Shown one piece after another: positions 33,633 through 52,370 of a stretch of DNA of 64,000 nt. This stretch comes from Polytrichum commune (Eukaryota; Streptophyta; Polytrichopsida; Polytrichales; Polytrichaceae): assembly GCA_950295325.1 (NCBI GenBank), contig OX485806.1, positions 40,114,001-40,178,000 on the forward strand. The letters run 5' to 3'. A program made the translations under genes and the position numbers. Positions within the stretch are counted from its first letter, which is position 1, and each line of letters begins with the position of its first letter. The notes under the pieces were generated by a model that saw only the letters and a program-made list of their open reading frames with translations, was not told the DNA's origin and did no database searches.

Positions 33633-34056
33633 TTCAGAATTAGGCTCAACTTGACATTATATGCGTTACTACACACTACCTATAACTTGAAGCAGGGTAC
33701 AATCTACAGTCACTGGACAAGTGTGCAGAAGTTGACAGATTCTTCAATAGCTAGGCTCAAGTCTGCAGACCTATTTCCAACCAACAATCCACCAACCACT
33801 AGCCCTATGTAACAGGCCGACGCAAATGGCTGCAACACTGAATCTTCAAAATTAGGCTCAACTTGAGATTATCGGGTACACAGGACCACCAAGTATAACT
33901 TCAAGCAGGTCATAATCTGCAGTTTAGATAAGTTGTAGAAGTTGACAGATTCTTCAGTAACTCAAGGCTCAAGTTTGCAGACCTATAAATCAACAATCCA
34001 CCAACCAGTTTAGAACTTAGCCCTCTGTAACAAGAGAATGTTGATGGCTGCGAGAC
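33633..34056. repeat. Tandem duplication of ~210 bp upstream of the peroxidase start
   Basis: Two head-to-tail copies, about 33,633-33,840 and 33,845-34,056, offset by about 212 bp. Shared phrases include ttaggctcaacttga, agaagttgacagattcttca, caacaatccaccaacca and atggctgc. The copies have diverged moderately. The block begins about 50 bp upstream of the peroxidase ATG (33581, minus strand), so it lies in the likely 5' untranslated or promoter region. Confidence 0.75.
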
Positions 34057-34059
34057 TTC

Positions 34060-35083
34060 TGCTTTAGATAATGGTGTTGGTGATGGTGTGTAATGGGGTT
34101 CCGAGGAAATCTGGAGAGGTAGGTTCTGGACAATCAGATCATGGCATGAGCAGATTAATACTGTGTATTCCAGTACTAATTATATGCCAGTGAGCTATCC
34201 TGGGTGTGAGTTATTATATGCTCTTCTGGAACCAGCAGGGCTGTGGTTGCGGAAAGGGAGCTTTTTCCCCTCATTACTAGCTTTTCCCTTACCTACTTTA
34301 TTTCAGAGACACCCAGGTTCAGGGGGTTGCCTCTTCACACAAGTTACAAACTTGAGCTCTAGCTCAAAGTGGAGGCCACACATGCCCAAACTCGGAGGTT
34401 TTCATAGAAAGCCGTCTTGGACTGGAGAGGTGAAATCGGATGCTCAGAAATTCGCGGTCACATTACATGTTGCAAATGAGCCAAAGTTTTCGTTAGTTTA
34501 ATGACATGTAACTTATGGGGCTATATAAGACTTCTTTAAAATGAGGATAACATAAAAGAAACTTAGTTGCCGGCACCGACTTCGCCTCCAAGTTGATTAC
34601 CTAACAAATACATCAGCATATTAGTTCTTATTTTTGTACAACCCAATGTTGCGTTCTTATTAGCTCTCAAAATGGTGGGTTGTGGTTTTTTCCCCATCAT
34701 CTTAGCTACTAGTCTAACAAGGAATCAACTTTTAAAATAATGACCAGATTTCAAAGACGGTGGTGTCGGTTGGGATAATTGCCAGTTTCCCATCATGTGT
34801 GTCCCCCCCCCCCCTTCTTCAACCTTGCAAGTTTGGTGGGCCGAGGTGTGAGACTTTAGGCCACTATGTATTTTTGACAAAGCTTTTGCAAGTTTTTGAC
34901 ATTTGACACGCAAAAACTTGCACCCCAAAAAAATGCACGTCATTTGACATGCACAATTTAAGAATTTGACATGTAGTGTGACCCCGGTTACGCAACTCCC
35001 ATATTATACGCATGGGGCATCGTACTTAAAACGGCTTAGAGGACGGCTTTTGTAAAAATTATATCAAATTATATCAAAAACAC
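34060..35083. other. Intergenic, no gene recognised
   Basis: Holds an open frame at 34163-34501 without domain features and a C homopolymer near 34,804-34,815. It separates the peroxidase promoter side from the mobile island. Confidence 0.5.
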
Positions 35084-35107
35084 TATATTCGGTATTTGGA
35101 GACTTTT
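35084..35107 (+). repeat. Left terminal-repeat-like sequence of element 1
   Basis: TATATTCG followed by GTATTTGGAGACTTT matches the inward-read ends of the 44.46-50.67 kb element (TATATTCGTTAATCG, GAGACTTT) at about 20 of 23 positions. The second half of the repeat (GGAAAGTCTC) is not preserved here. Confidence 0.5.
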
Positions 35108-35480
35108 TGTTGATTATGAGACTATATAAGGATGCACATTTCAAAATTGGACCAGTAATGACGACTAAAAATCCCATATGTATAATGGTATGCTACTATT
35201 ATTATACATAAAGGCATGGAAGTGAAAAAAAATGTGAGGCATACATGAAAATAGTTGCATATGAAATGACAACTCGTTATGAATGGAAGGGAAGATGCGA
35301 AGAATGAATGGAAGTTGAATGAATTAATTGGGATAGAAATACAATTATAATGGAAATACCATCAATGTCTTGAGTAACTTGGAATAGCATAGAAAGTAAG
35401 CACTTAAATATGTTCTACACCTTAGCCCATTTAGGGAGTCCGTCCCACTAGTACGCTTCTAGTCACACTAGTCCGACCCA

Positions 35481-36371
35481 CTATTTTTTTTTTGCGGCTA
35501 AGTCCTTTTTTTGGGCGGCCTCCATGGCTCTAAAAATCTCAGGCCCACGACTGTATCCTTGTGTGTTGCCTGGAAAGGAATATGTGTCGTTCTTGCATGT
35601 TTCAGGACGCGCTCCCGAATTGTACGAGGTGGTATTATAAGTAGAATACGAGGGCGTTTGCGAAAGGGAACGTCTTGCGCTTCTCCGGAGGGCCAGACAA
35701 CGATCGGACTCGGAAGATGCGGCCTTGAGGGCGTGCCTTGGCACTGACGAAGTCGAGGAGGGTTGGCCACCAAGCGAGCGGGGAGCCACCTGCCAAAAAA
35801 CGCCATAGGAAGATAATAATAAGAACGGAGTGGGGAAATGAGGAAGGGCGGTTTGGGATGGGCGCTCGTAAACCTCTTGGCACGCGCAGACAAAGAGGAA
35901 AGCAACGGTGAATATGGGTTTAGGGACAAAGAAGGGCACCTTGGATTTGGTGACATCGATCCCGGGGACGATGGGGGCGTCGAGGAGAGCATACGAATCC
36001 GGTTGAATTGCGGCACTGTTCAGTAATGTGGGGGAAACATGGCAAGGAGGGCCAACGACCGGGGATGGGTTTGCAGGAGGAGGAACGGGGACGACGGGGG
36101 AGGGGTCGCACCGGGTTGCTTCCAGGTGGAGACGTCGGCTCGGCCCACGACGAGCGACGGCGTCGTCCCTCGAGGGCGACACATGCCCCAAACGAACGAG
36201 CGTCCGCTTCTCCTTGGAGAGGGGGGAGGGCGACGGGGCGAATGCCCGGGGGACAACCCTGGGGGGCGGGCTGTTGACAACACCGTCGTCGACGTCCCGG
36301 GAGTAGTCCACGGCCGAGGCTGCATCCACCGCCGAGAAGTGGTAGAGTGAGGGGATCACGGAATACGTCAC
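35481..36371 (-). other. GC-rich block with open reading frames, coding status unclear
   Basis: A compact, GC-rich segment open in several frames on both strands, the longest being 296 codons on the minus strand. That product is rich in Pro, Ser and Arg and I recognise no domain. It lies 3' of the FCP1-like exon in the same orientation and might be a further exon, a separate small gene or non-coding GC-rich DNA. Multiple simultaneous open frames are expected in GC-rich sequence, so I do not call a gene. Confidence 0.3.
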
Positions 36372-36562
36372 GCCGCGGGAAGGGGAGCCTGGGGACGAGG
36401 GGGGACGGGAAAGGCCGTGGAGGACGGGGGCGTCACATATGGGGGCAAACTATGGGGAACAACAACAATAACAACAACAACACAGACAACAAAGACATCC
36501 AAAAACGGATGAAGCGTTAGATATGTGAACCAAATGATAACACGCACATACATGAAGATATT

Positions 36563-39500
36563 TCAAATGAGTTTATTAAATTTCGCGAGCCTCATGATGC
36601 TCTTGTATACATTATCGCGGGGGCTTAGTCCCGCATTGCCGATGGGGTTGGACCTAACAAAAAAGGGGATGCTACCGGCGTGGAGCACAAGCCTTCTAAG
36701 GTACGGCGCTAGCGTATCGACCAAAAATGCGTCCTTCCTATCTCCGGTCCACGTGTCGGGAAAGATGACGTTGCCCGGGGGGTTCAAAACGCTCTTGGCG
36801 GGGCTGTCGTCGACCAGGAGGGTGTTCTCCGGAGTAGGCCACCACCCGTGGGGGGTCCCCTGAAGCCGGGGGACGCCGCGCCAAAGTCTGGACCTTAGGA
36901 CCTTGAGGAACTGTTGCCCTCGGCCTCGGCCGCCGAACTTGGGAACCGGTAGACCCTTTTCGTCGAGTAGTTCATCGCAGTCCTCTTGCCCGAGGACAAG
37001 GCAAGGGCTCGGGAGATCACGGAATAGGAAGTCGACGATGGGTTCCGTGTTCTCCATGACCATTGAGCTCCACACAATGACGTGGGCGAACTCGACAACC
37101 TCGCGAAGGAAGTCCCGCAAGCCGGGACGGGCGCGGACAGCCTTGCGGTTTATTAGGGTGTCGAGCTCGCCGTCATAGTCCCTTTCGTCGGGGTGACGGA
37201 AGGGACGCGTGGGGACCCTCGGGATGTGTTCGGTGTGACACAACACCCCGTTGAGGTCAAACACGATGAACGGCTTGTTTCGGGTCTGAGGTCCACTCGT
37301 GGAGGGGTTGCGACCTATCTCCGGGGGGTCCTGTGATTAACAATTCGACTAGTTTAATGCTATGATCCAATAAAGAATTTAGCAAACATGAAGATGCAGT
37401 ATGGAAAAAGACGAAGGGCGAGAACAAGGGTACATTTGCGAACGATCGTTCGTGAAAGGCCAGCAGTGACCATGCGCACCATTCACGAACGTTCATTTGT
37501 GAATGAACCCTATAGTGCATTTACGAACGGGCGTTCGTGAAGGAGATGGTCGCGGGGTGGCATCCTTTTACGAGCGTCCGTTCGCGAACGAGGCAGAAAT
37601 GCACAACAGATTTGAACCCGCATGAACATACACAAAACAACCAATGCGAGACGACGCGATTCGATGCAAAAAAATGTTTCATTTATATGAATTCCGTGAA
37701 ATTTACAGTTTGTCTCAGATGATAATCTATCGTACAGGTTCCTAGGGCAACAAGATGCCGTGTCCTACAAAACTGGTCGACCTGAGGAAGCACGCAAAAA
37801 TGGGCTATCGGAGGTTTCGGATGCCGATGTATACAACGCGCCAAAACACAACGCATGTGGTTAGAGATGTTACGAACGCGCGTTCGTAAATGCATGCGGT
37901 AGTCTCAAAGATGAGTTACCTCGTCATCGGAGGGAGGGGCAGCGGCGCTGGATTGAGCGGCAGCTCCCTCCTCAGCGATTAACGAACGCGCGTTCGTCAC
38001 ATCCGCCGCCGCAGGTGCCTCAGTCTCCATTACGTCGTCAGCACGCGCCGCCTGAGACGTCTGGGTCTGCTGTATGTCGTCCTCCTCGCCACCCAGGTCG
38101 AGAGTCTCCATGTGCACGTCCCCAATGCATGCGGGGGGATGTCGGTCTTCCGCAGGGCTGTCCTCGACGTCCATCCTCTGGACGCCTGCGGTGTCACTCG
38201 GGCTCCCCTGCGTGTCCTCCACAATGACCAAGTCAGTGTGTCGCGCAGTATCATCGCCCCTTGTCCTATCTAGTAAACTGGGGACGACGGTGAAAGGTGC
38301 CGTGTCCGTCTGTGAAGGCAGTCCTACCCTTGGTGGGGGTGGGGTGAGGACTGTTGGACCTGAAGATTCACGAACGTGCGTTCGTAAATCCTCGTCCTCA
38401 CGGATAGCCGCCGAGATTGCGTCGTGTATGTTGGCGGTGTCCGTGGGCATTGTAGGGGGTGGAGGAGTCCCCACCGGCGTTGGGTGGGGCGCTGGCTGGT
38501 AGGAATGCCCTCCCGGGAAAGGACCGTGCATGGGGTATCCCGCAGGGAATGGGAATGCTGCCTGAGGGGCCACTGCAAAGTTCTGCAGCCTGGTCAGCAT
38601 CGCCAGTATGGCGTCCGTCTTCTCGTTGGAGGACTTCAGCTCCTCCTCAATTTTTCTCATTTTCCGGGCATTCTCCTCTGCAGCCGCAGCCATGTCTTCC
38701 TTCATCTTCTGCTCGAGCTTTGCGTTAAGCTCGGCGACGGAAAGGGCCTCCTCCTTGACCCTCTTGTTCTTGTCGAACTCCACCCCAAGCTCGACCATAA
38801 TGTCAATGTCCCCCTCGTCCTCGTCGGAGACCTCAATGATCGCCCCCTCGGGCAACTCCACGTACGGGGTCTTCTTCATCCTCCGTCGCGTGTTGCGGAA
38901 CAGGTCCAACGTGGGACGGGAGCGTTGGTCGAGGACATCGAGGGTCTCCATTTTCGGGACCGCCAGCCTTTGCTTGGGGGACACTGACGTCGAACAACCT
39001 CCTGGCGTGCCGAAGGGCTCCGCGCCTGAGGTAAGCGCGGGGAGGACATCCTGGGTGGCACCCGCCGAGGATCCAGTACATCCAGCCGGGGTCCCTTGGT
39101 ATTCTGAAGGCTCCCCCGATGGGGCCAACAACCGGAGAGGAGTGACATCCAAAGCCTGGAGGATGGCATCGACGTTGACGGAGGGGCCAGGCTCGTCGTC
39201 GTCTGTTTCCATGGGCGGCATGCCTTCCTCGGCCGGCATGTTGAAGTCCGTTCTGGGCACGGACATGTCAGCTAGGTCCATCGTCGACGCTTTTGTCCTG
39301 TGGAACTTGTAATCCTCCTCGTCGACGGCGTCAATATATGTGTTCACGCACAGCCCCAGCATCTGAGATAAGAAGGCAAAGATTCAGTCATTTACGAACG
39401 CGCGTTCGTAAACATGAAGGCTTTGAGCGAGGAAATAATAAAAAACAATTCACAAAACAATCATAAGTATCGGCTGCCCATGGTAAATTGTTTGGAGCAT

Positions 39501-42294
39501 GCAGTGTTTACGAACGAGCGTTCGTAAAAAGTGGTGTGAGATGGCTTACCATGGCCGCGTACATAAATTTGCTGCCTCCAAATACGTTGTAGACAGTCTC
39601 GCCAATCATTGCCAAACCCTGCAATATGGAGACGTAGAACTCCATCCTCAGCTCCAGCGCCGGGAAGACAGTGTACAGAGTCTCCTGGAAGAGATCCTTT
39701 GGAGGTGGGTGAGGGATGCTGTATATCTTCTTGAATGTGTTGATCGCCTTTATGGGTGCTCGCCCATTCCTAAGCGCATTGTACGTCAAGAAGATGAGGC
39801 TCACCGCTCCCACCTGCCTGTTGCCTCTGGCCTCGTTTACGGCAACAATTCCCTCCGTCTTCGCTGGCACGTATGTTCTGTGGAAGATGTTGTACTCGAA
39901 CTTGATCTTGTTCTCATACAAATCGATGACGACGGATTGCTTCTCCTGCTCCACAATCCACAGCCATACGTGCGGCTCCCTCATGGTCGGAGATTTGTGC
40001 TCCATGAATCTCGCCATGAAAGGGTTGTAAAAAGGCTCCCCCTTCGCGCCCTGTCGCGAGGCACCGGGTATCCCTCTGAAGTCGATGACCGCGAAGGGAC
40101 AACCCCTTCGATCCTCCCTGACCTCGGACCTGCTGAAGGTGCCATCCCACTTGGAAAACGTGGTCCTCTCCAGCCCCGTGGTCACCACACAAAATCTTGC
40201 CACGCCCTCGAAGGTGGCGTTCCTCTTCCTCTCCAAGAAGGAGATGTACCGTTGAAGCTCTTCAGGTTCCGTTTCTGTTTTTTTTGCTCTTTTGTTTCCC
40301 TTGAGCTTCAGGACGGCGACGTGCTCCTTCACCAGGCTGCGCATTGAGGCACCGTTGATATTGTACAGCGCCTTGAACTCCTTCCATTTCGCCCAGTTGA
40401 TATCTTCGTCGGCCTGGAAAAGGTGCATCTCAGGCAATAGGCCGCTAATCTCCCGCATCGCAGCGGTCTTCAGCTTCCTGTGGTCGCACCACTCTTTGAT
40501 CGAGTACGTGCCGGGCTTGTGCTTTGGTCTCTTCAAAAATATCTTGGGATAAGGGATGGTCCTTCCGACGGTGTTCCCAAGAACGTGAACCGCACATCGC
40601 TGCAACTCTGATTCAGTCAGTCCTTGCAGGGCCCTAAAAAATTCCCGCAGTAGAGGCGGAGCCTCTCCGCTCTTCTCTTGAGCGTACTTCTCTTCTGTGT
40701 CTGGGTTCACCAGATCGCCCGAGCTGTGAGCGTCGAAGAACTGGGTCCACAACTCCCAGGTGTCTCTGTTGCAGCAAATCAGACGGAGCTCACCTTTGAG
40801 CTCCAGAACTGATTTGGTGCTTGTGGACTTCATGTCGATGGAGGAGAATTTGTCCACCATCGCATCACAGAACGCCTGCAACATACATACGAGGACGTCA
40901 GTGTTCAATACTAAATACGAACGCGCGTTCGTAAGTTGGAAAATTTAGAAATTGTTTAATGCAACATATGCTTTACGAACGCTCGTTCGTAAACTCACCT
41001 TCCACTGTGGAGATTGCGTCTTGGCGTTCTCCCTCTCTTTTGGCGGGCATCCGTGCGCGACCCACACGTCTCTGGCCGCCACTATATTCGCCGCCCAGGA
41101 GGCCTCGAATGCCTTGATCTTGTTTCCGGAATTCAAAAATGTCGATATTTTGCGGAGCTTGTCCCAGTCGTCAGACCAAACCAAAAACGCCTTCCAGTAG
41201 CGCAGGTCCGCCTTGAGCTCGTGCTGGAAGTTATCATCCTTTAGGATGATCTGTGACGCCTCTAGACTGTGTTGTCCATCGATTATCCAAAACTCTCCAT
41301 TCTGGATTCTTGGCCAATCCTTCTCAGTGGGGCGTGACAAAAAACCCTTGGGCATCACGCAGACGGTCTGCCTATCCCACTTCACGTTGTTCATGAGGTT
41401 ATTAATCTGCCACTTCACCCCTCCGCTTTCACGAGACCTCACCACCCACTTGTTAGGAGATTTCTCGCACTTGAAACAATCCACGTTGAAAGTGAAGTGG
41501 CGTCCCATAGGCCAGCAATCCTTGGAGTAGTTGTTGAAGTCTCGAAGGATTTTTGTCGCTTTGGCAGCGTCTGGGTTTTCTCCCTTCTTCAAAGGGGTTG
41601 GCATCACTGGAGGAGAACTAACCTCAGCGCCTTCCGTCAATCCGGACTTCTCCATCTCGTCCCTCGACCTCTTGGATGGAGTGGATTGTCTGCTGGGCCC
41701 TTCTGTCAACCTGCTCCCCGAAGGCACAGGCCGCGGAGCACTTCTCGATCCTCCTGCCCCCGAAGCAGCTGGTTTTTTCGGACTTTTCTTTTTTTTATTT
41801 GCCTCCGCGGCAACACTGTTGTACTTCGAAACATTCAAGGTCAGGGCAGTCAACTTCCTCGCCGTCCAGTGTTGACTCAGGGCATATTTGGTGAAGAGAG
41901 CATCCAGATTGAAATGTTTCGCATCGGATGCGACATTATTGCATGCATAAGCATAAGAGAATGGGTGCAATAGGTAGTTTAAGAGGAGGTTCACATGGTC
42001 TTTTTTATTTTTCATATCCAGAATAACAAAGTCTCCTTGTGCCTCTGCGGATTCTATCTCCCAATTCTTTGTCTGCACCCATTGGTCTGGTTGGTCAGCC
42101 CTTGTCTGCAGCTCATAAGTGAATCGCAATGCAAACAACCCTTCCTCGGTCTTCGTGGGGATGGCCGTCCACTCAGCCATGAATTCTTCTTTTGGGACAT
42201 AGTTGTCGTTCCCATTGGTATCCGAGACGCCCTCTGGAAGGCGCTCCACTGGCACTGCGAACAAGTCGATGGCGTTTCTGTTAGCTTTAGCCAT
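36563..42294 (-). CDS. Large mobile-island protein: ParB/DGQHR-like domain plus FCP1-like HAD domain
   Basis: Four minus-strand exons, 42294-40999, 40875-39550, 39362-37920 and 37330-36563, join through GT-AG introns all in phase 0 to about 1,610 residues. Exon 1 starts with ATG directly after a cag acceptor, so an upstream leader exon is likely. Exon 1 (432 aa) has a basic KKKKSPKKP stretch near 167-175 and a ParB/DGQHR-like core with FWIIDGQHSLEAS at about 335-347, followed by a LRKISTFLNSGNK segment that recalls DGQHR proteins. Exon 2 (442 aa) is not recognised. Exon 3 (481 aa) is largely disordered with one Lys/Glu/Ala-rich coiled coil. Exon 4 (255 aa) resembles FCP1/NIF HAD phosphatases: FDLNGVL at about 1378-1384, VIVWSSM, then LLVDDS. 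The second catalytic-motif acid is Asn, so activity is uncertain. Joining exons 3 and 4 rests on matching phase; exon 4 could be a separate gene. Confidence 0.6.
37434..37585. repeat. Degenerate palindrome cluster near the FCP1-like exon acceptor
   Basis: Four relatives of the island palindrome lie in intron 3: cores near 37439-37452 (centre AT), 37482-37508 (broken), 37521-37541 (good, centre GG) and 37571-37584 (broken). They are more decayed than the copies elsewhere in the island. Confidence 0.6.
37870..37891. repeat. Island palindrome, intron 3 donor side
   Basis: Arm ttacgaacg, centre CG and arm cgttcgtaaa, 28 nt inside the donor of the intron that follows exon 3 (exon end 37920). Confidence 0.85.
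37979..38000. repeat. Island palindrome inside coding exon 3
   Basis: The core acgaacg, CG, cgttcgt lies in the open frame and is translated on the minus strand as VTNARSLI. It is one of only two copies seen in coding sequence. Confidence 0.8.
38367..38388. repeat. Second island palindrome inside coding exon 3
   Basis: Arm ttcacgaacg, centre TG, arm cgttcgtaaa, translated on the minus strand as DLRTHVRES without interrupting the frame. Confidence 0.8.
39391..39528. repeat. Palindrome pair bracketing intron 2
   Basis: Two full copies, 39391-39412 (centre CG) and 39507-39528 (centre AG), lie in the 187-nt intron 39363-39549. One is 28 nt from the acceptor, the other 21 nt from the donor. Confidence 0.9.
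40914..40993. repeat. Palindrome pair bracketing intron 1
   Basis: Copies at 40914-40935 (centre CG) and 40972-40993 (centre CT) lie in the 123-nt intron 40876-40998. The donor-side copy begins 5 nt after the exon end; the acceptor-side copy is 38 nt from the acceptor. Confidence 0.9.
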
Positions 42295-42325
42295 CTGCAT
42301 CACACAAGAGCAAATCAGAATTGCT

Positions 42326-42347
42326 TTTACGAACGTTCGTTCGTAAA
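42326..42347. repeat. Island palindrome upstream of exon 1
   Basis: Centre TT, both arms perfect. It is 31 nt upstream of the cag acceptor that precedes the exon 1 ATG, the same relation to a splice site as the copies in introns 1 and 2. Confidence 0.9.
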
Positions 42348-42458
42348 CAACACCGTGCCATGCATATTATTTTCATAGTGTGGTTTTTGGAAATACGAAG
42401 TTTTGAATGTTTTATGCATTTCAGGGTGTTTCTAATGCATTCACATTGGTTCACATCT

Positions 42459-42665
42459 TTCACGAACGCGCGTTCGTAATATGAGATTCCTGTTTATTAG
42501 TATTTTGTACATAACTATACGAACGCGCGTTCGTAAAGTCATGTGATATTGTGGAAACTATTGAGTTAAATTTAGTGTTGTGATTGGATTTAAGTACTTA
42601 TATGAATTACAGCATGGATATATCCCTCCATTTTGGATTTAGAGTTTCGAACGCACGTTCGTAAA
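42459..42665. repeat. Three island palindromes in the upstream region
   Basis: Copies at 42459-42480 (centre CG), 42516-42537 (centre CG) and 42645-42665 (centre CA, left arm with a small deletion). They lie in the region upstream of the minus-strand gene. Confidence 0.85.
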
Positions 42666-42690
42666 CGTAGTCCTTGGGTTCCAAAGAATC

Positions 42691-42812
42691 TTTACGAACG
42701 CGCGTTCGTGAAATGGTATATATTTTGCGCGGCCTATGCATTTACGAACGCGCGTTCGTAAATGGGTGTATATTGTGCGCGGTAGAGGTATTTACGAACG
42801 CTCGTTCGTAAA
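42691..42812. repeat. 50-bp-period palindrome array
   Basis: Palindromes at 42691, 42741 and 42791 are spaced at exactly 50 bp. The spacers resemble each other (atatattttgcgcggcctatgca, gtatattgtgcgcggtagagg), so this is a short tandem array with one palindrome per unit. Centres are CG, CG and CT. Confidence 0.85.
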
Positions 42813-43954
42813 TGAGCCTGTTGTTTGTTTTTATATATATAATTCATAATAACAATATAGTGTCCGTACATATACGGATTTGTATATATACGAATTCGTA
42901 TACATACGTATGGCAAGGTCTTGCTTGCTGTGTCTCAACAAAGCTTGCACTTGTGCCTGCAAGTGTTCGTCAGAAAGGTGAGATTGAAGAAAAACAATAC
43001 AATCAAAACATATAGACTTGGAATGTGACAGAGAATTCAGAACGAGGATCCGAACTTGACTTCCAAAACACATGCCATTCAATAATGAACAAATATAGAC
43101 TGTGAAGGATTTGAGAAGGGAAGGAATATTGTGCTTACTCTGAAATTTTACACACCCAAAAGCTGCTTGCTCCCTTGTTGAAAACCCCAGGAAACCCCAC
43201 AAAAGCAAGGTGATTTGAAAGTCAAATGCACCACTGCACCACTGAAATTGCCTTCACACTAGTTGTTGCATGCTATGTACAAACCCTAACTAAGACTCTG
43301 ATGTATATGCAACTTCAAATGCAGTATCTCTCAAGCTGCTACTCTAAAACTTGCAATTATCAAGCTTATAGCTTGAGTATCCTAATCTTAGCCTTCCAAC
43401 TCTCAAGCTTTAAACTCTATAAACTTTCAACTCTCCAACTTTCAACTCTTCTAACTCGAGTTCTCTATTCTTGAGCTGCAACTCTCAAGGGACTGTCAAT
43501 AACTCTCAACACTTGCGCCTACAAAAGAAGTGCACCACACAAAACTAAAAAATGCAAGAGCTTCGCCTCTAAACTCTAAACCAACGCGGCGCTCCTCCTC
43601 TCTCTGCTCCAAATGAGAATGAGGAAGGAGAGGAGGGGGCGCGGGGAGGTAGCCCGCGCCTCTAGGGTTTTCCCTCGGGCTGCCACATGGCCGCTTCCCA
43701 TTGGGGAGGGAAGGGATGGGTCGGGCTAGGAAGATGAGGGGATGGGATGGGGAGATAGCATGGGGTGTGGGATGGGTGGATGGGGGGGATGGGTTGGAAT
43801 TCATTGGGGTTTAGTAATTCAATGTAATCAAAGCACATAAATATATTCAATGTGACTTAATAAAGTGATTTGCATGGGGGGCACTAACCGATTTGACATA
43901 AATCTATGTCATCACAATAAGAAATGCAACTATATATTACACCATTTGCACTTA
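42813..43954. other. Upstream part of element 1, no gene recognised
   Basis: AT-rich DNA with an imperfect inverted stretch around 42,865-42,910 (atacggatttgtatatatacgaattcg) and a compact purine/pyrimidine-skewed block 43,560-43,800. Minus-strand ORFs here have no domain features. A leader exon and promoter of the minus-strand gene should lie here. Confidence 0.35.
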
Positions 43955-43991
43955 GTTTGAGACTTTCCCAACTCTCTAATTAACGAAAATA
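43955..43991 (-). repeat. Right terminal-repeat-like sequence of element 1
   Basis: TTTGAGACTTTCCC...AATTAACGAAAATA resembles the right end of the transposase element (TTTGAGACTTTCCA...GATTAACGAATATA) at about 30 of 37 positions, in the same orientation. Confidence 0.55.
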
Positions 43992-44460
43992 ATCTAAGTT
44001 GGATGTATAAGCAATAAAGGCACGTTAATTTCAAGCTTTTTAATATGTATATGCCTCCATCACATAAACATAAGGAGTCCAGTACAAAACATGCATTTTA
44101 AATGCTACATCCCCTTCATCTACTTTGGATTCATTGTAAACATCTTCTAGATAAGGAGTATGAATTCAATTTCCACATTGCACATCATGTACTAGGGATT
44201 CGATGAAAACCCTACCCCCAACGATGTGTATTAATATGGTGTTTTCAAATATATAGTGTTCTCATAATTGAAATATCTTTCAAGTTTTTAAATGGTTCCT
44301 CAAATAATTTAATATAAGATCCATAAAGGTCCCGATTTAAGATTGGTGGGAACGGTTTAGGATTTTCTTACAAGAGGTGCGGGAAAATTCAATTTCAAAT
44401 ACTAGGCTTTCAATTCAGTTTATTATGTGTGAACTTGAACTACTGCATTAAATTTATTAT
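43992..44460. other. 470-bp spacer between the two candidate elements
   Basis: AT-rich DNA between a right-type end at 43991 and a left-type end at 44461. No ORF and no palindrome was seen. Confidence 0.5.
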
Positions 44461-44500
44461 TATATTTGTTAATCCGAGACTTTGGAAAGTCTCAAAATAA
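44461..44500 (+). repeat. Left terminal inverted repeat
   Basis: Reads inward TATATTTGTTAATCC, then GAGACTTTGGAAAGTCTC, then AAAATAA. The central 18 bases are a palindrome with arms GAGACTTT and AAAGTCTC. The mate at 50631-50670 differs at only two positions. Confidence 0.85.
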
Positions 44501-44834
44501 ATGCAAATGATTTAATATGTGGTTCAAATTCTTATTCGGATGAGATGTATTTGTGCCAAATTGGTTAGTGTTGCCCATGCAAATCGCTTTATTGTGTCAC
44601 ATTGAATGTATTCTTGTGTTTTACTTGTTCTTTATTTGAATACCATGTTCTGAAATAGTATCCAAAATCATGAAAATGTCCCCAATTACAGAATATGGTG
44701 ATCGTTGAAAGTTTGGCTCGCATCAAATGTAAGCTACAAATAAATTAAGTTAGTGCAATATGGATTTATGAGTAGTGAATATAGTTTGTATGTAAACCCT
44801 GTTATATGAACTACTGGACATGCACATCCCTCAC

Positions 44835-44863
44835 AAACCCTAAACCCTAAACCCTAAACCCCT
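44835..44863. repeat. Interstitial plant-type telomeric repeat
   Basis: About four consecutive CCCTAAA units, the plant telomere repeat on its C-rich strand, lie about 375 bp inside the left terminal repeat. Confidence 0.85.
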
Positions 44864-45189
44864 AGTTTTTTTTACCATCCGCACTATATGGGGGAATGTT
44901 GTGATCCAACCTAATAGTGTTGAGTGCATTTTAATTACACAATGCATAAGTGGGACTCCATATAGGTATGGTTTCAATTCATATCATTACACTATCTTAT
45001 GCACCATTCCAAATTAATTCAACATTTCCACACAATGTTGAATCAATTCACTATTTGCAAACCTGGAGTTGCATTTGAATTAAGATATAAAGTATATCTA
45101 GGCATGGTTTGAATTCATCTCCTTAATCTACCTTAGTAGCTTGCATGAATTCACCAGATTTTTTATTGGTGTTCATGCACTTGGTGAGT

Positions 45190-45540
45190 ATTTGCCGCAA
45201 TAATGTACATAAATGTAATGTAGATACATGTAATGTATATATATGTAAAGTATAGATATGTAAAGTATAGATATATGTAAGAAACATATATATAGATATA
45301 TAGATATATATTCACACATATATATAGGTATATAGATATATATTCACACATATATATAGGTATATAGATATATATTCACATATATATATAGGTATATATA
45401 TAGGTATATAGATATATATTCACATATATAGATATATATAGATATATATTTACATATATACAAAGATATATATATATATATGTAAATATAAGTAAATATA
45501 TACATCGATATGTATATAGGAATATACATTTTATTTTTTG
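45190..45540. repeat. TA-rich minisatellite block
   Basis: Successive related units such as 'taggtatatagatatatattcacacatata' repeat with periods of roughly 20-45 bp, preceded by 'atgtaaagtatagat' units. This low-complexity DNA produces spurious Tyr/Ile-rich ORFs on the minus strand. Confidence 0.8.
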
Positions 45541-45889
45541 GTTCGGGAAACCTTGGTAACACCTAAGGTGTGGAACGGATGAACATATTATCAATGCGTG
45601 CATGCGATACATATTCAATACAGAAAGTTATTTATGTCCCGCATGAATAGAATGGCATATTGTTAGGTTAAAGTAGGCGGCGGGAATCCGCTTTTCAAAG
45701 AGAATCCAAGGGATTTTGAACCACGGTAGAGGAGTACTTAAAGCTCTCCCCCCCATTGCAGAGCTCTTTTTTGCGGGAGACACCAAGTGTGCGCTCCAGA
45801 CACCCGACGGAGGGCGCTCGAGCCAGTTTCCTGTGCGTGAACCGTACACTCATAGGTGGCAGACAACCTTATCCCGCAAATACCGGGGG

Positions 45890-46398
45890 TTTACGAACGC
45901 GCGTTCGTAAACCTGCAGTGCGCGCATGTGTTTGTGGATGAGATATATCGAGGTTGGTTGGATGTTTACGAACGTGCGTTCGTAAATACCGCCTTGGCAT
46001 ATATGTACATCCATGAATGTATAGACCCATATACGATTATGCATAGGCACAGACAATATGAAAGTCATATACGAACGAACGTTCGTAAATGTAGATTTTG
46101 GGCATCCGCCGAACATTGGGAATGTGCAAGAGTTTACGAACGCGCGTTCGTAAACCTTCAGTGCGCGCATGTGTTTGTGGATGAGATATATCGAGGTTGG
46201 TTGGATGTTTACGAACGTGCGTTCGTAAATACCGCCTTGGCGTATATTTTACATCCATAAATGTATAGACTCAGATACGATTATGCATAGGCACAAACAA
46301 TATGAAAGTCATATACGAACGAGCGTTCGTAAATGTACATTTTGAGCATCCGAAGAACATTGGGAATGTGCAAGAGTTTACGAACGCGCGTTCGTAAA
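45890..46398. repeat. Tandem ~243-bp units each carrying three island palindromes
   Basis: Unit A runs 45890-46132, unit B 46133-46376, and a third unit starts with a palindrome at 46377. Each full unit has palindromes with centres CG, then TG, then AA (unit A) or AG (unit B), at 45890, 45965, 46068 and 46133, 46208, 46312. Shared spacer phrases include gatgagatatatcgaggttg and gaaagtcatat. The frames that read YERAFVN are translations of the palindrome, not genes. Confidence 0.9.
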
Positions 46399-46448
46399 TA
46401 TTGAATGCGCGTAAACGGTGTATGGTACATACTGAAATGACATTAGAG

Positions 46449-47031
46449 TTTACGAACGTGCGTTCGTAAGTGACACCGCTTATTTTCAGAATCCACATAC
46501 TCATGGATATAAGGGATATGAAGATGTAAATACAATACGATAGTAATTTGCAAACAGAAGGTCGAAAATATCAATGATTTCAGCAGATATACATAAGATG
46601 AGCGAGAGTTTACGAACGTGCGTTCGTGATTTCCACCTGGGAGTATGTCGATGCATACATCACGCCTCCCTGGGCACGCACACAAATATATATGTATTTA
46701 CAACAAAATATTAGACATAAATACGAACGTGCGTTCGAATTCATTCAGGGAATGTATCTGGACATTGACTGCGAGATGTGGGAAAATGCTCCATTTGCTC
46801 CACATACACATAGTATGGGCGAGGGATGTGTATTTGGGGCACATGGAATAATACATTCATATGCGTCAATGACTCTCAGAAGTTATGTGTAGGCATATAA
46901 CAGGTATCCCTGCACAATTGAAACGGTCCATGTTTTAGTTGACATACAGAATGACGGGGAACATTCGAACGCCCGTTCGTATATATGCCCAACTCAAACA
47001 GAAGCGTGTTTGCATGCAGACGATCGTTCTG
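46449..47031. promoter_or_regulatory. Palindromes in the region leading to the transposase gene
   Basis: Copies at 46449-46470 (TG), 46609-46630 (TG), 46720-46741 (TG, right arm decayed) and 46962-46983 (CC, left arm decayed), plus a weak relative at about 47018-47031. They become less perfect toward the gene. Their position between the tandem units and the start codon suggests a promoter or leader function, which is inference. Confidence 0.6.
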
Positions 47032-47147
47032 TTATTCCCACTGTGACTTGTGCTCTATTGTGACTTAGGTTTACTAAAATCTTGTTGTATTTGTGATTGA
47101 CTTATATATGTTGTGATTCCATGTTCGCGTCATTAGGTGGGTTTGCG

Positions 47148-50100
47148 ATGGATATGGGAGATAGTGCATTTGAGTTGTCGACGAATGCATCATCGTCGGA
47201 TACGGAATGTCGCCTCTCTTCGCCTTCGGAGGATTATATTCGAGGGGCTAACGTCCTGGGTGTGTCTGGGGATACATCCTCCCATGAATCTTTGGAAGGG
47301 CAGGAACATTCCCAACATTATGGGGATGATAACGACCACATTCCATTGTGTGCCGGTTTCGGGAGGGAGCAGTGGGTGGGCCTTGATGTTGTTCTTCTGA
47401 ACGAGCATGGTGTCCCTGTGGCAAATGGCATTTGTAGAAACTCCGATCCCCTTGAATGTATTGATGCCAACCCCCTTGGATTGGATGATGTTGGCGTTTG
47501 CATCTTGAATTCTTTACTTCCGTTGGAAGTCCCGTTGACTTGGAGATTTTCCTTGCGGCGATGGCCCCTGCGTCGAGTTCTCCATGAAGAAGTAAGCTTG
47601 TGGGATCATGGGCGACGGCACAAGCAAACGCAGTCAGCTTTGTTGGCCGCAAGCCGTCCTCGCAAAGGTCTGCGCAAATACGATTCTAGTCGTGTGTCTG
47701 GCATACAAAAAGAACGTAGACGGGATTCCATACTTGGAGAGGACTCTATCCGTCAAGTATCCACAAAGGACTGTTGTGCGAAGAAATGTTGTCAATTCTT
47801 TCCGCGTGAAAAAATTAGGTCCCTTCGGCAAGAGATGTGGCTTGCGGATTTTCGTATGAGGTCGGCAAAAAAACTCGAGGTCCACAGAAATTTTCATGTT
47901 GACAGCCATGGCAATAAGGTGGTTACCCTTGAGAATGTGGAAGTGTGTTGCACAGCATGGTATTCCATCCATGCAGTCTCCAAGGCTGATTTTTATAGGT
48001 TTAGGAAGTATTCTTTGTTGGGACGCCGTTCTCGATTTCATGGCAACTCGGGCACCAAGAAACCTAGAGAGGCTACACTCCAAGCCTCCGCGACACTCTC
48101 CACCATCATAGTCCCGTTGGCCGATGCAATGCCCCACAAGACGAGGACATTGTCCTCCGGGGAGAAAGTTGTCCAAATGGTGTTGCCCACGGGCACAAAA
48201 TGGAAGAACATCTTAACGGATATAAACGAAGTGGGTCGCAAAGCTGGGTGTGGGCCCATTTCTTTGTCCAAGTTGAGTGTAATTAAAAACCAACAGTTTG
48301 CGGAGTACATTTTGAAGAGACCCGGGGACAAGTTTGCCAGGTGTACGACGTGTGAAAAGTACAAAGGTCTTCGAGACGCCCATCCTATAGGCACCGAGTC
48401 CCATACAAGACACCAAAGAAAATACATTGAGCATGTCAACAACCAGGAGGCACACCGTCAAGATTACTACAAGAATCGTGCACTATCCATAATGAGGCCT
48501 GCGGAGGTCCTAACTGTCATCCATGATAAAATGGACCATGCCAAAACCGCATGCCCTTGTTATGCACGCAAAATTAAAGCCACGGATGGTCTCTTCAAGT
48601 TGCCCGTAGCTGTCACAGGTTCGTATGGAATCACAAATGTGTTTGAAAGGATTTCCAATATTTTTGGGTTTGTTTGTCATATGTCAAACTTCATCCGTCT
48701 GTTTAGTGGTTATACCATATTTTTGTTGTTCATCCATCGTTTTTTTTTCTCAGGTATGATCGCCCACGGCCATGGGGACGTTAAATATGCCCATTATGGT
48801 TTGGATTTTTACCCTGGCGATGCCAACCACACGGTTGGTTCATTTGCAAAACTCTTGCGCGATCTTGAGAAGCCGCCGATTCACTCTTCCCGTGCGCTTT
48901 TTGATGGTTGTGGAACGACACCCCTTTACGAGGCAGTGCTTCAGGGGAAGGAGGTTTGTATGTCGGCATTGCCGGAACCACGTGGAGAACCCATTTGTGC
49001 AAAACCATTGCCTCCAACTCTCCATGTTCAACTTGATAATTGTGCTAAAGACAATAAATGTCGATATGTGTTTTGTTTTTGGTCATTGCTTGTGGCAAAA
49101 GGCATATTCAAAGAGGTGTTTGTGTCTTTCTTGATGGTGGGGCACACACACGATGACATTGATGCGTCATTTGGACGTTGGAGCATGAAGTTGCATGAAG
49201 AGGATTTTCCCACCATACCGCTTCTTATGAAATCATACATGGATTTGGACAATGTGCCCGTAATCCCGCACATGATTGAGGAAGTACCAAATTTCAAGGC
49301 CTTCATCAAGCCATACATGCTGAAGGGAGACGACCGTTTGGTGGGACACACGAAAGCACAACAATTCCGCTTCTATATGAGGGATGATGGTGTCCCTGCT
49401 ATGCAGTTTAAGCTTTTGTGCACATCTCCTAATTGGTGTCCGGAGGATGGGATACTCGTGTGGCGTCAGAACAAGGATGGAAAATGTTTGCTCCCGGATG
49501 GGGATCCAAAGCCTTGTAAACCCGATCCCATGAAGAATGGGCCGGAAATCATCAAAGGTATATCCGGATTCATTGAATATTGGAAAGAGTTGTGTGAGGA
49601 AGACATCACCAAACGTGTTAGGAATACTTATGAACCGTTGATCGCGTATTGGGATCGCATTCGCTCGGCCTTGATGACACTTGGTGGTGACACACGTATA
49701 ACTTTGACACAAGGATTTTGGCCACAAAGTCGTTTGACGGTTGTGGAGTCCGACACCATGTTCTTTGACAATGGAGAGGTCCGTGAAGAGTTCGAAATGG
49801 ACGAGCATTACGTTGGTCCTGCGCGCAATCGGCCGGCACCGTCGTTTCGTGTGGGTGTTGATTGCCATGAAGGGTATATGGTCCTCGTACGAGCAGGAGA
49901 TGAGGAGCACCCCAAGCCAATTTGGTTGGTGAAAGCATTGTCTTCACCCAATTTTATCCGAACTAGCCCCAACTTTCATCAAATTGAAGTGGAATATTGC
50001 CGTCCTAGCACCAAAGACCAGAACGTTCTCCGGACCTATTTAGGTTGGGACACCAAAAAGAATTTCAAGTGGACAGTGGACTCAGCATATGGACCGGTTT

Positions 50101-50279
50101 GGATAAACACGGATACCATACTTTGTGCTTGGAAACCGCGTAAGGGCTCTAAATCGGAAACAATGACCATCCCCCAAAAACATATAGATTTTGCCAAAGA
50201 CAACCTGGCACGTATTGCAGCTGTGGAAAATGAAGCCGAGAATGGATATGAAGCGGAATATGGAGACGGGGAAACATAA
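47148..50279 (+). CDS. DUF7869-type putative transposase (RNase H-like)
   Basis: The open frame runs from 47097, but I prefer the ATG at 47148 (MDMGDSAFELS) because a possible acceptor (cattag) lies at 47131-47136. A 135-nt GT-AG intron, 48619-48753, is likely: it is in frame but encodes a hydrophobic, T-rich stretch, and its removal joins VAVTG to MIAHGHGD, giving about 998 aa. Features are a Cys cluster (CCAKKCCQFF), a CxxC (CTTC) and CPC, then a probable DDE-type core: IHDKMDHAK, LDNCAKDNKCRYVF and GHTHDDIDASFGR, which are the conserved blocks of the DUF7869 family, often found in transposon-like genes. The C-terminal third may be a DNA- or chromatin-binding part. It lies within the terminal repeats and is divergent from the ParB-like gene. 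The frame is uninterrupted, so it may be recent or active. The transposase role is inferred. Confidence 0.75.
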   Translation: MDMGDSAFELSTNASSSDTECRLSSPSEDYIRGANVLGVSGDTSSHESLEGQEHSQHYGDDNDHIPLCAGFGREQWVGLDVVLLNEHGVPVANGICRNSDPLECIDANPLGLDDVGVCILNSLLPLEVPLTWRFSLRRWPLRRVLHEEVSLWDHGRRHKQTQSALLAASRPRKGLRKYDSSRVSGIQKERRRDSILGEDSIRQVSTKDCCAKKCCQFFPREKIRSLRQEMWLADFRMRSAKKLEVHRNFHVDSHGNKVVTLENVEVCCTAWYSIHAVSKADFYRFRKYSLLGRRSRFHGNSGTKKPREATLQASATLSTIIVPLADAMPHKTRTLSSGEKVVQMVLPTGTKWKNILTDINEVGRKAGCGPISLSKLSVIKNQQFAEYILKRPGDKFARCTTCEKYKGLRDAHPIGTESHTRHQRKYIEHVNNQEAHRQDYYKNRALSIMRPAEVLTVIHDKMDHAKTACPCYARKIKATDGLFKLPVAVTGSYGITNVFERISNIFGFVCHMSNFIRLFSGYTIFLLFIHRFFFSGMIAHGHGDVKYAHYGLDFYPGDANHTVGSFAKLLRDLEKPPIHSSRALFDGCGTTPLYEAVLQGKEVCMSALPEPRGEPICAKPLPPTLHVQLDNCAKDNKCRYVFCFWSLLVAKGIFKEVFVSFLMVGHTHDDIDASFGRWSMKLHEEDFPTIPLLMKSYMDLDNVPVIPHMIEEVPNFKAFIKPYMLKGDDRLVGHTKAQQFRFYMRDDGVPAMQFKLLCTSPNWCPEDGILVWRQNKDGKCLLPDGDPKPCKPDPMKNGPEIIKGISGFIEYWKELCEEDITKRVRNTYEPLIAYWDRIRSALMTLGGDTRITLTQGFWPQSRLTVVESDTMFFDNGEVREEFEMDEHYVGPARNRPAPSFRVGVDCHEGYMVLVRAGDEEHPKPIWLVKALSSPNFIRTSPNFHQIEVEYCRPSTKDQNVLRTYLGWDTKKNFKWTVDSAYGPVWINTDTILCAWKPRKGSKSETMTIPQKHIDFAKDNLARIAAVENEAENGYEAEYGDGET

Positions 50280-50630
50280 CATAAGTTGGATTTAATGGCT
50301 CAATGTAGGGGGACTTTATAGACTTGGTATTATTGCAATTATTATATAATAAATTTATAATATTCAAATTTATAAATACGTTTGGGATGTGCCATACAAT
50401 CCCATAAGACCCTTATATATGGGATGCACACCTTAAACTTTATAATGACATAATACTATTTGATTTTGGGATTGGATTGTTTTTTCCACGTGTAGTTCAT
50501 GTTTATGTTATGATATGAAGACTTACTATTTTTAGTAATGTGAATATTCTTCGCAGGCGAATTTGTAAACCGTCATGTTCCCAAAGTTCCATATGTTCAC
50601 AATATTGGCATCCCAAACTATGGGCGTATT

Positions 50631-50670
50631 TTATTTTGAGACTTTCCAAAGTCTCCGATTAACGAATATA
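50631..50670 (-). repeat. Right terminal inverted repeat
   Basis: TTATTTT, GAGACTTTCCAAAGTCTC, CGATTAACGAATATA; the inverse of 44461-44500 with two mismatches. It lies about 350 bp after the transposase stop codon. Confidence 0.85.
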
Positions 50671-50691
50671 GTGTTCAAATCAAAATGACCA

Positions 50692-50790
50692 AAAAGTTGG
50701 GTGAAGACCAAATTAAATAAAATGAGATGAAAAAAAAGTTGGGTAAAGACCAAATTAAATAAAATGAGATGAAAAAAAGTTGGGTTGCAT
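50692..50790. repeat. Tandem ~49-bp duplication outside the right terminal repeat
   Basis: The phrase 'agttgggtgaagaccaaatt' and the following 'aaataaaatgagatgaaaaa' occur twice in direct succession just beyond the element end, so they belong to flanking DNA or a post-insertion duplication. Confidence 0.75.
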
Positions 50791-51770
50791 ATTTATTAAG
50801 CCTCCCATTAAAATTATAATTCATTCACAATGTTAAAATTTTATTAAAAAGTCCAAAAAGTTGGGTAGTTTGACCTATGGTACCTGTATTAAAAAAATCA
50901 TATAATTAGGTTTTTAATGCAATTATATGCTTCAAAATATATTCATTTCCTATATATAATTACATTTTTGGATTCCTTGTTAGAAGGGCTACAAGTGTTT
51001 CCTACATTAAAACAAATTGTATCACTCAATATTGGACTAAAACGCATTATAAGTGATTATAATCAGGACCATATAATACGGGAGTTGCATACCCGGGAGT
51101 GTGACTTGTGAACCACACATCAATTGTCATGTTGAAAATTGAATGATATGTAGTACTAGACATGTAAAATTGAGGTGACATTTTAGAATAGAATGTATTT
51201 GTCAATTGACATTCAATTTTGTTTTTGAAAACGTCACGTGACACTTTGGATTTGAAGTTGATTGTCAGATGAAATTTGTCAAACATACACCCTAGGGGGT
51301 CCTTTTGTAAACCGCGTGTGGTTTGGGGTTGATTAAAGATGGGCTATTTATCTAATTCTCTTGAATAGTTGGCACTCGTTTATTAGATAAAATGATCCTC
51401 TGTGATATTTTTGAAGACCCTATAGGTAAATATAATTTACACCATGAATTTATTTTATAACCTCGATTGTGTTTGTAAACTATACCATTCATCAAAATAT
51501 TAAAATTTTGACTTAAATTAACATTAATTTATTTAAAAAATGATAACAACACATTAACGGTACATGCAAATATAGTAAAATGGTACCTGATTGCAACACT
51601 ATCTTGAAACTCTTAGTGACCACCCCAAGCTTGCCAACATCTAATTTGATGACTTCTAGTCTACTGAGGCGACTTCTCCATCAAGTCCAATGACATTCTT
51701 TGTTCCTCACATAAATTCTTCATTCCTCCAAATGTAATAGACCCTACTTCATTAATAAAAAGGTAAATAC
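50791..51770. other. Intergenic, no gene recognised
   Basis: AT-rich DNA with no supported gene or repeat boundary. A 79-codon minus-strand ORF at 51047-51286 has no recognisable features. Confidence 0.5.
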
Positions 51771-52370
51771 TACCTATACTTTTAATCTACTCTAGTTTAG
51801 AATGTGTATCAAAAAGACTTAGATTTAAAAGAGATTAGAACACATGCTCAATATATAGTAATCATTCTAGGTTTAGCATTCAACATAATTGGGGGGACCA
51901 ATATGACTATTTGCTGAACACACAAAAATCATCTCTTTGATAATGAATGAAATGTCCATATAAGCTCCAAAAATTAAGAGAAAAGTGGCTACAAATAAAT
52001 GTTTTTTCATTTTGTTGTAGGAGCTAGAGTGGCAATCACCATCACATGATGATTCTTTTTGTAAAGAATGACTTGAATGTAATATAACATTCTTCCTGAA
52101 AATTACTGAAAATATTACTTTAAGGACGATTTTATTCCCCAAATTTCTAAAAACTGGAAAACTTGGCCCCAAAAAAAAACAACAACCAATTTTTCGACAA
52201 AACATTCCGTTTTTTCTAGTTTTAAGGTCAATTTGTTTTTGCAAAATTTCACCAAAAAGTTTTCACTGGTGGATGTGGCCTTGATTTGGATTTGCTAACC
52301 ATCTCATACTAATTGAGTGTTTCATATTATATGAGAAAGTGGGCTGGTCAGAAAAAGTGCCACTTAAAAC
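51771..52370. repeat. Dispersed MITE family copy, possibly interrupted
   Basis: Carries 'acactaaaaa'-type and 'aattggggggaccaatatgac' phrases, 'tttgataatgaatgaaat' and, after about 250 bp of unrelated sequence, 'gccttgatttggatttgctaa' and 'gagaaagtgggctggtcag'. The order matches the intronic copies of the Patched-like gene, but the ends are eroded and the middle seems to contain an insertion. Confidence 0.45.

Follow-up and report, generated by a model that had tools for sequence, protein, structure and literature searches.

A 64-kb stretch of the Polytrichum commune genome (hereafter called the window) contains a DNA transposon of 15.6 kb with sharp ends (35079-50675), in which many copies of a single palindrome are arranged around the genes of the element. 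The limits of the transposon are common to five near-identical copies, namely the window copy (W) and copies B, C, D and E, each of which is flanked by a different 4-bp target duplication (CAAA, AAAT, AATG, AAGT and AGGA, respectively). In the window, CAAA is present at 35075-35078 and again at 50676-50679. The copies align to the first base of a left terminal inverted repeat that starts AACACTATATTCG (35079-35108, forward strand), and the copy alignment also places the right terminal inverted repeat, which ends CGAATATAGTGTT, at 50646-50675 on the reverse strand. Terminal repeats and flanks were inspected by eye in six copies, the sixth of which (copy F) carries no 4-bp target duplication. 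Over long aligned stretches, B, C, D and E share 96.5-99.5% identity with W, and it is therefore probable that the family moved recently.

The element carries a gene for a DUF7869 protein, presumed to be the transposase, whose 1060-amino-acid open frame (47097-50279, forward strand) gives this domain as its sole Pfam match (PF25273, 1e-39) and likely has an intron near 48.63-48.76 kb. Transcribed divergently from it, on the reverse strand, are the gene for a NIF-type phosphatase and a three-exon gene that we refer to as the left gene. Exon 1 of the left gene (40999-42297) encodes the part of the protein with a G-Q-H motif (the GQH protein), and is followed by exon 2 (39550-40875), whose relatives are 25-83% identical, and by exon 3 (37905-39362), which was delimited from its open reading frame (ORF) and its relatives. 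The exon boundaries inferred from splice signals carry ordinary GT-AG signals.

A preliminary description of this DNA had noted about 30 copies of one palindrome, confined to a mobile island and built from conserved arms around a free two-base centre. The palindrome, TTTACGAACG-NN-CGTTCGTAAA, is 22 bp long and has a 10-2-10 build. When both strands of the window were scanned, 26 instances were found at no more than three mismatches, all within 37435-46630 and none elsewhere, compared with a mean of 0 in 100 shuffles of the whole window. A scan of 34001-52000 that allowed four mismatches raises the number to 28 by adding those at 37482 and 46962, and because one more degenerate copy was spotted by eye near 46720, the earlier figure is a fair one. 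Every match in the window lies inside the transposon, and thus the confinement to the island also holds at this scale.

The 28 sites are placed mostly in DNA that we take to be non-coding (26 sites). Five lie 3' of the left gene, of which four (37435, 37482, 37520 and 37567) are grouped at 37435-37588 and one is found just downstream of exon 3 (37869-37890). Exon 3 itself holds two (37979 and 38367), intron 2 another two (39391 and 39507, spanning 39391-39528) and intron 1 a further two (40914 and 40972, spanning 40914-40993), the second of which adjoins the 5' splice site. Seven are located upstream of the left gene at 42326-42812 (42326, 42459, 42516, 42644, 42691, 42741 and 42791), and ten upstream of the DUF7869 gene at 45890-46983 (45890, 45965, 46068, 46133, 46208, 46312, 46377, 46449, 46609 and 46962), a cluster that is in part a 244-bp tandem duplication. 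The open frame of the DUF7869 gene in the window copy contains none.

Information content was calculated for the motif class of the window (class W) from 104 distinct instances in copies W, F, H, I, J and K and in locus L031. The two centre columns carry 0.3 and 0.5 bits, the arms 1.0-2.0 bits and the flanks 0.0-0.5 bits, and therefore the description of conserved arms and a free centre applies to the window family. Between W and subfamily F, 360 of 379 aligned arm bases are identical (95%), compared with 20 of 38 centre bases (53%) and 751 of 1141 bases within 40 bp on the flanks (66%). The corresponding values between W and H are 249 of 257 (97%), 15 of 26 (58%) and 451 of 746 (60%). Sites without an alignable counterpart (9 of 28 in the comparison with F and 15 of 28 in that with H) do not enter these sums, and anchoring an alignment on the palindromes can inflate the identity of the arms. 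At the four intron sites, where homology is fixed by the exons, 78 of 80 arm bases are retained in F (18, 20, 20 and 20 of 20, with flanks that are 55-79% alike) and 75 of 80 in H. Among 89 distinct W-class sequences, changes in the arms are one-sided in 126 cases, two-sided and symmetry-keeping in 13, and two-sided and symmetry-breaking in four.

In the genome searched (408 Mb in 64 contigs), for which the locations of sites represent samples rather than a census, the 18-bp core TACGAACG-NN-CGTTCGTA occurs as 4,680 exact copies, and its reversed control does not occur at all. The first 100 of the listed sites form eight clusters by eye on contig C1, all eight of which lie in element sequence as judged from five fetched loci (L011-L015), two left-gene matches and one 601-bp fetch (L060). 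A second sample, comprising the 35 sites with a centre of AC or GT, falls by eye into 23 groups. All 15 of the groups that were fetched match element sequence with the palindromes masked (the weakest, L048, over 52 bp with an E value of 2e-10), and window DNA from outside the element, used as a control, is matched by one of 16 loci (L051, 81 bp). The other eight groups are inside L012 or lie about 7 kb or less from listed gene copies. The preliminary description had proposed that the palindromes are recognition sites for an element-encoded protein, a proposal that would be refuted by an even spread through the genome independent of the genes or by identity with a known satellite. As sampled, the sites are strongly clustered and the places where they occur are copies of this element, and so the proposal survives. 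A free-standing satellite is rejected given that all eight clusters and all 15 further places sit in element sequence.

One of the fetched loci, L011 (C1:638000-647999), is a related copy with 46 palindromes, many of them in tandem blocks, and only short stretches of the fetched 10 kb match the element genes. In viral contigs, the palindrome core was found at one place in each of seven contigs, which we take as background.

A genome-wide search for DUF7869 genes gave 1,491 candidates, of which 150 were scored. Long stretches were fetched round four of these genes, and 4.5-kb stretches round 12 more that were picked for diversity. Five motif classes (W, V, Z, Y and X) were recognized that share the 10-2-10 build and occupy the same places, but differ in the letters of their arms, the half-sites being TTTACGGACG for V, GTTTGGGTCG for Z, CCCACGGGTG for Y and GGGTGRGGCA for X. 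The Z element has 39 copies of GTTTGGGTCG-NN-CGACCCAAAC at no more than two mismatches and no W sites; its palindromes occur ahead of the two genes, in the two introns and around exon 3, and one further match listed, at position 40 and with four mismatches, resembles a chance occurrence. Its left gene is 35-37% identical to that of W, and its DUF7869 protein 58-66%. Class Y, CCCACGGGTG-NN-CACCCGTGGG, is represented by seven copies in a first element that lacks an intact left gene, and by five in a second, fuller element (L037) that has both the left gene and the NIF-type gene. The two X elements, X1 and X2, have 29 and 26 sites resembling GGGTGRGGCA-NN-TGCCTCACCY, arranged as two clusters between divergent genes; some arms are imperfect, and the class is less perfect than the others. 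The X family (L020 and L021, C7:2062000-2078499; L022 and L023, C6:41937500-41953499) exhibits inverted repeats starting AACACCGGTTTCGTTAA and 4-bp duplications (CTTC and GGAA), and therefore W and X share ends resembling AACAC...TTCGTTAA.

Among the 12 further copies, ten carry the palindrome of one of these classes: W in L031; V in L025, L026, L027, L028 and L032; Z in L029 and L030; Y in L024; and X in L033. At up to four mismatches, the motifs of foreign classes are absent from the 15 sequences compared, save for one Y-like match in copy E. The V loci do match the W pattern at four mismatches because W and V differ by two bases, and true W-type cores inside the V class number two in V and one in L027. 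The presumed DUF7869 intron holds one Y site and one V site. Genome-wide, the 18-bp cores of Z, V and Y occur 10,011, 1,382 and 953 times, with reversed controls of 0 each (X was left out of this count). Palindromic words of 7-2-7 build, observed 4 to 37 times, never occurred more than once in 50 shuffles of 2-base blocks for each of W, Z, Y, X1, X2, V and F.

V is separated from W by a single substitution per arm, A to G in one arm and T to C in the opposite one. The new base is present in both arms, with an otherwise clean core, at 39 of the 61 V-class sites; four sites are mixed, three retain both old bases, and the remainder carry other changes. A symmetric alteration of this kind is what a shifted preference of a symmetric reader would leave. 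The earlier suggestion that the arms are read by a symmetric protein thus gains support, both from the build that the palindromes of the relatives share and from the prevalence of two-armed change in the V subfamily.

The left gene is the strongest candidate for the source of this reader. Its G-Q-H motif is invariant in all five aligned rows (W, H, V, Z and Y), and a profile made from these rows matches open frames at the same place in X2 (2.8e-7 in a small set), which carries DGQH, and in X1 (1.4e-4). A related left gene therefore accompanies all five motif classes, weakly in X. Between W and F, which share a motif, exons 1-3 are 84, 82 and 75% identical and the DUF7869 protein 88%, and between W and H, which also share it, the values are 83, 83 and 72% with 79%. 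Across motif classes, the exons fall to 46, 54 and 39% with 80% for DUF7869 (W and V), and to 37, 38 and 35% with 63% (W and Z). Thus, the left gene diverges far more than the DUF7869 gene between motif classes, and not clearly so within the W class. In a tree of 18 DUF7869 rows, built from the N-terminal part, the W, V, Z and Y classes follow the phylogeny with three changes, which is the minimum; the W, V and Y groups are well supported, and Z has values of 75/83. The divergence pattern and the tree, which offer few independent comparisons, favour the GQH protein as the putative reader.

On balance, we lean towards the interpretation that the palindromes serve each family as a private address, with a dimer encoded by the element, probably of the GQH protein, as the reader and anti-silencing as the outcome. 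A dimer of a symmetric protein, most likely the product of the left gene, would occupy the two 10-bp half-sites. Given that the sites are located upstream of both divergent genes, in the introns of the left gene and round its 3' end, binding would mark the regulatory DNA of the family, and would keep it expressed, most likely by holding off host silencing. Site and reader would have changed together in each related family, so that activation would not extend from one family to the next. In this proposal, the binding itself, the choice of protein that does the reading and the effect on silencing are inferred from sequence comparison.

Several observations weigh against this interpretation. Two of the 12 surveyed DUF7869 copies (L034 and L035) have no repeated palindrome; our guess is that these are old copies. 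The centre carries 0.5 and 0.3 bits in Z, similar to W, but 1.3 bits in V and 1.0 bits in Y, and therefore W and Z alone have a clearly free centre. CG makes up 33 of 44 V centres, all 12 Y centres are AA, TT or AT, and X centres are TG or TA nearly throughout, some of these V, Y and X sites being tandem copies. The left gene of X is only weakly related to the others, and neither Pfam nor other profile searches revealed a recognized DNA-binding domain in the left gene. In addition, the DUF7869 rows of H and V are partial, and over the shared N-terminal part (H 87%, V 80%) the contrast between the two genes is smaller than in whole rows, so that it rests mainly on the fall of the left gene from 83% to 46%. 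The faster divergence of this gene could reflect relaxed constraint instead of co-evolution. Finally, retention of CpG near the sites is evident in W, F and H, marginal in V and absent in X1, and it runs the opposite way in Z and X2, a mixed pattern that gives no help to the idea of protection from methylation.

Other explanations were considered. The reader of the palindromes could be the presumed transposase, which would use them to control its own promoter or to build a transposition complex. All five classes have the DUF7869 gene, classes W, V, Z and Y separate cleanly on the tree of its protein, and one palindrome cluster lies directly upstream of the gene. However, W and V differ in motif while their DUF7869 proteins remain 80% identical, the sites fill the introns of the left gene, and, unlike subterminal transposase sites, the outermost ones are 2.36 kb (left) and 3.69 kb (right) away from the element ends. 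Being away from the termini, they are poor candidates for transposase assembly, and we regard this explanation as unlikely but worthy of attention. Much the same standing is given to autorepression, wherein a protein of the element would use the palindromes as operators to turn both genes down with increasing copy number. The density of sites ahead of the two genes would suit this role, and a family-private operator would likewise diverge between families. Nevertheless, promoter repression has no need of sites in introns or 3' of the left gene, and copy numbers in the families are high (first-look candidates number 1,082 and 1,869, of which 93 and 85 were scored).

A role as RNA hairpins in introns or leaders, affecting splicing or stability rather than acting as DNA sites, is very unlikely in our judgement. 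The palindrome could fold into a 9-bp stem with a 4-nt loop, several sites are near splice sites, and the excess of pair-keeping over pair-breaking two-sided changes noted above (13 versus four) agrees with pairing, but it fits a symmetric binder equally well. After one-sided changes, 29 cells have G-U, 41 have A-C and 47 have other mismatches, with the transcript strand assumed from gene orientation, and so there is no excess of wobble pairs; moreover, the arm sequences are wholly different between families and the 2-bp spacing is kept. It is highly improbable that the palindromes are functionless products of a passive satellite or of tandem duplication. Some copies are indeed in tandem arrays, most conspicuously in L011, but the arms of the intron sites are kept between W and F amid drifting flanks, and a single build is common to five different arm sequences.

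The preferred interpretation of a private address resembles a system known from Arabidopsis. Two reports on VANDAL transposons describe VANC, the second protein of these elements, as binding short and often tandem motifs in non-coding DNA and removing methylation, with related families using different motifs and with VANA being more conserved than VANC (Hosaka 2017, PMC5735166; Sasaki 2023, PMC10398659). The moss elements likewise encode a second protein, have many short and partly tandem motifs in non-coding element DNA (26 of 28 here), differ in motif between related families (five classes here), and have a second protein that is less conserved between motif classes than the presumed transposase. 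The site, in contrast, has two-fold symmetry over 22 bp around a 2-bp centre, unlike the 9-base asymmetric word of VANDAL. The second protein is a GQH protein, and no Pfam match to DUF1985 (the VANC protein family) or DUF287 was found in the left-gene exons of the window or in the proteins of relatives that were scanned. VANDAL elements have a Mutator-type transposase, unlike the presumed DUF7869 transposase and 4-bp duplications here, and a NIF-type phosphatase is also carried here. Since the formal features of VANDAL are matched and no VANC-type domain was found, we speak of a system that works like VANDAL, not one that belongs to it. The best reading is that the window system works like VANC-mediated anti-silencing with unrelated proteins, both binding and anti-silencing being putative here.

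Two other systems provide partial parallels. The TnpA protein of En/Spm binds repeated short subterminal sites in its own element, and the palindromes are similarly repeated short sites proposed to be bound by an element protein; the window copy differs in having no site within 2.3 kb of either end. Bacterial ParB-parS partition systems use clusters of palindromic sites in cis, together with a CTP-dependent clamp that spreads and a ParA partner, and the GQH motif is reminiscent of the DGQHR/ParB-like superfamily. Here too, clustered palindromes lie in cis with the gene for a GQH-motif protein, although the host is a eukaryotic transposon and the profile matches are non-significant: at the GQH site, PHROG 1033 ('ParB-like partition protein') gives an E value of 0.12 and Pfam DUF6551, listed as of unknown function, gives 0.2. 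The 'ParB-like' label used in the preliminary description rests on the GQH motif and on these two non-significant matches. No ParA family match was obtained with Pfam among the six window ORFs scanned. It is rather improbable that the GQH protein is a domesticated ParB-like clamp that loads at private parS-like palindromes and spreads over the element to bar silencing or to gather copies, with each family having its own non-cross-reacting pair of site and reader.

In the literature searched, which covered few subscription papers and no preprints, neither 'DUF7869' nor the 16-bp core ACGAACGCGCGTTCGT was found in any paper. Among the listed matches to searches on family-specific transposon palindromes, palindromic transposons of mosses, NIF-bearing transposons and transposon-encoded palindrome binders, nothing fitted. 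If the proposed private address is real, sequence-specific self-recognition by transposons would have a further origin beyond the VANDAL elements of Arabidopsis, one that uses unrelated proteins and a symmetric site of a different kind. The five natural site classes, one pair of which differs by a single symmetric base, form a panel for the study of how protein and address change together, and could possibly yield a set of orthogonal site-specific DNA binders. They also set a testable function beside DUF7869.

Some further characteristics of the left gene deserve mention. Sequence searches with Pfam, NCBIfam, PADLOC, PHROGs and PDB provided no acceptable name for it. A profile match of exon 2 to a cytochrome trimer (E value of 0.00058) was dismissed as a local match of about 6 bits counted three times in one chain. 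No viral relatives of exon 1 or of half of the DUF7869 protein were confirmed in viral contigs, and in phages tblastn found nothing for exon 1 and no more than weak partial matches for exon 2. For exon 1 and the second half of the DUF7869 protein, structures modelled from single sequences had a mean predicted local distance difference test score (pLDDT) of 33 and were not used. The end of exon 2 (39550-39700, reverse strand) has a conserved GETVYNVFGGSKFMYAAM stretch that by eye resembles motif I of DNA methyltransferases, which no profile search supports. In the V class, exon 1 (L036:4587-5645, forward strand) gives a sub-threshold match (E value of 0.015) to YEATS, a histone-reader fold.

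The remaining features of the window element include the NIF-type phosphatase ORF (36563-37264, reverse strand; Pfam PF03031, 1.5e-14), for which tblastn finds related ORFs in the F, Z and Y elements that are 94, 47 and 36% identical, respectively. Farther to the left is an ORF for 296 amino acids (35481-36371, reverse strand) that matches no Pfam family and has relatives in copies F and Z. A forward-strand open frame at 45856-46260 reads the palindromes as repeated VYERAFVN, and looks like a by-product of the repeats rather than a gene. The palindrome-free middle of the element includes an inverted pair that is about 79% alike (43830-44622), and in this region copy C has an extra CACTATATTCGTTAATC end, as if small relatives of the element nest there. 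Also between the two palindrome clusters are a short telomere-like AAACCCT run (44835-44861) and a long TA-rich tandem array (45201-45526).

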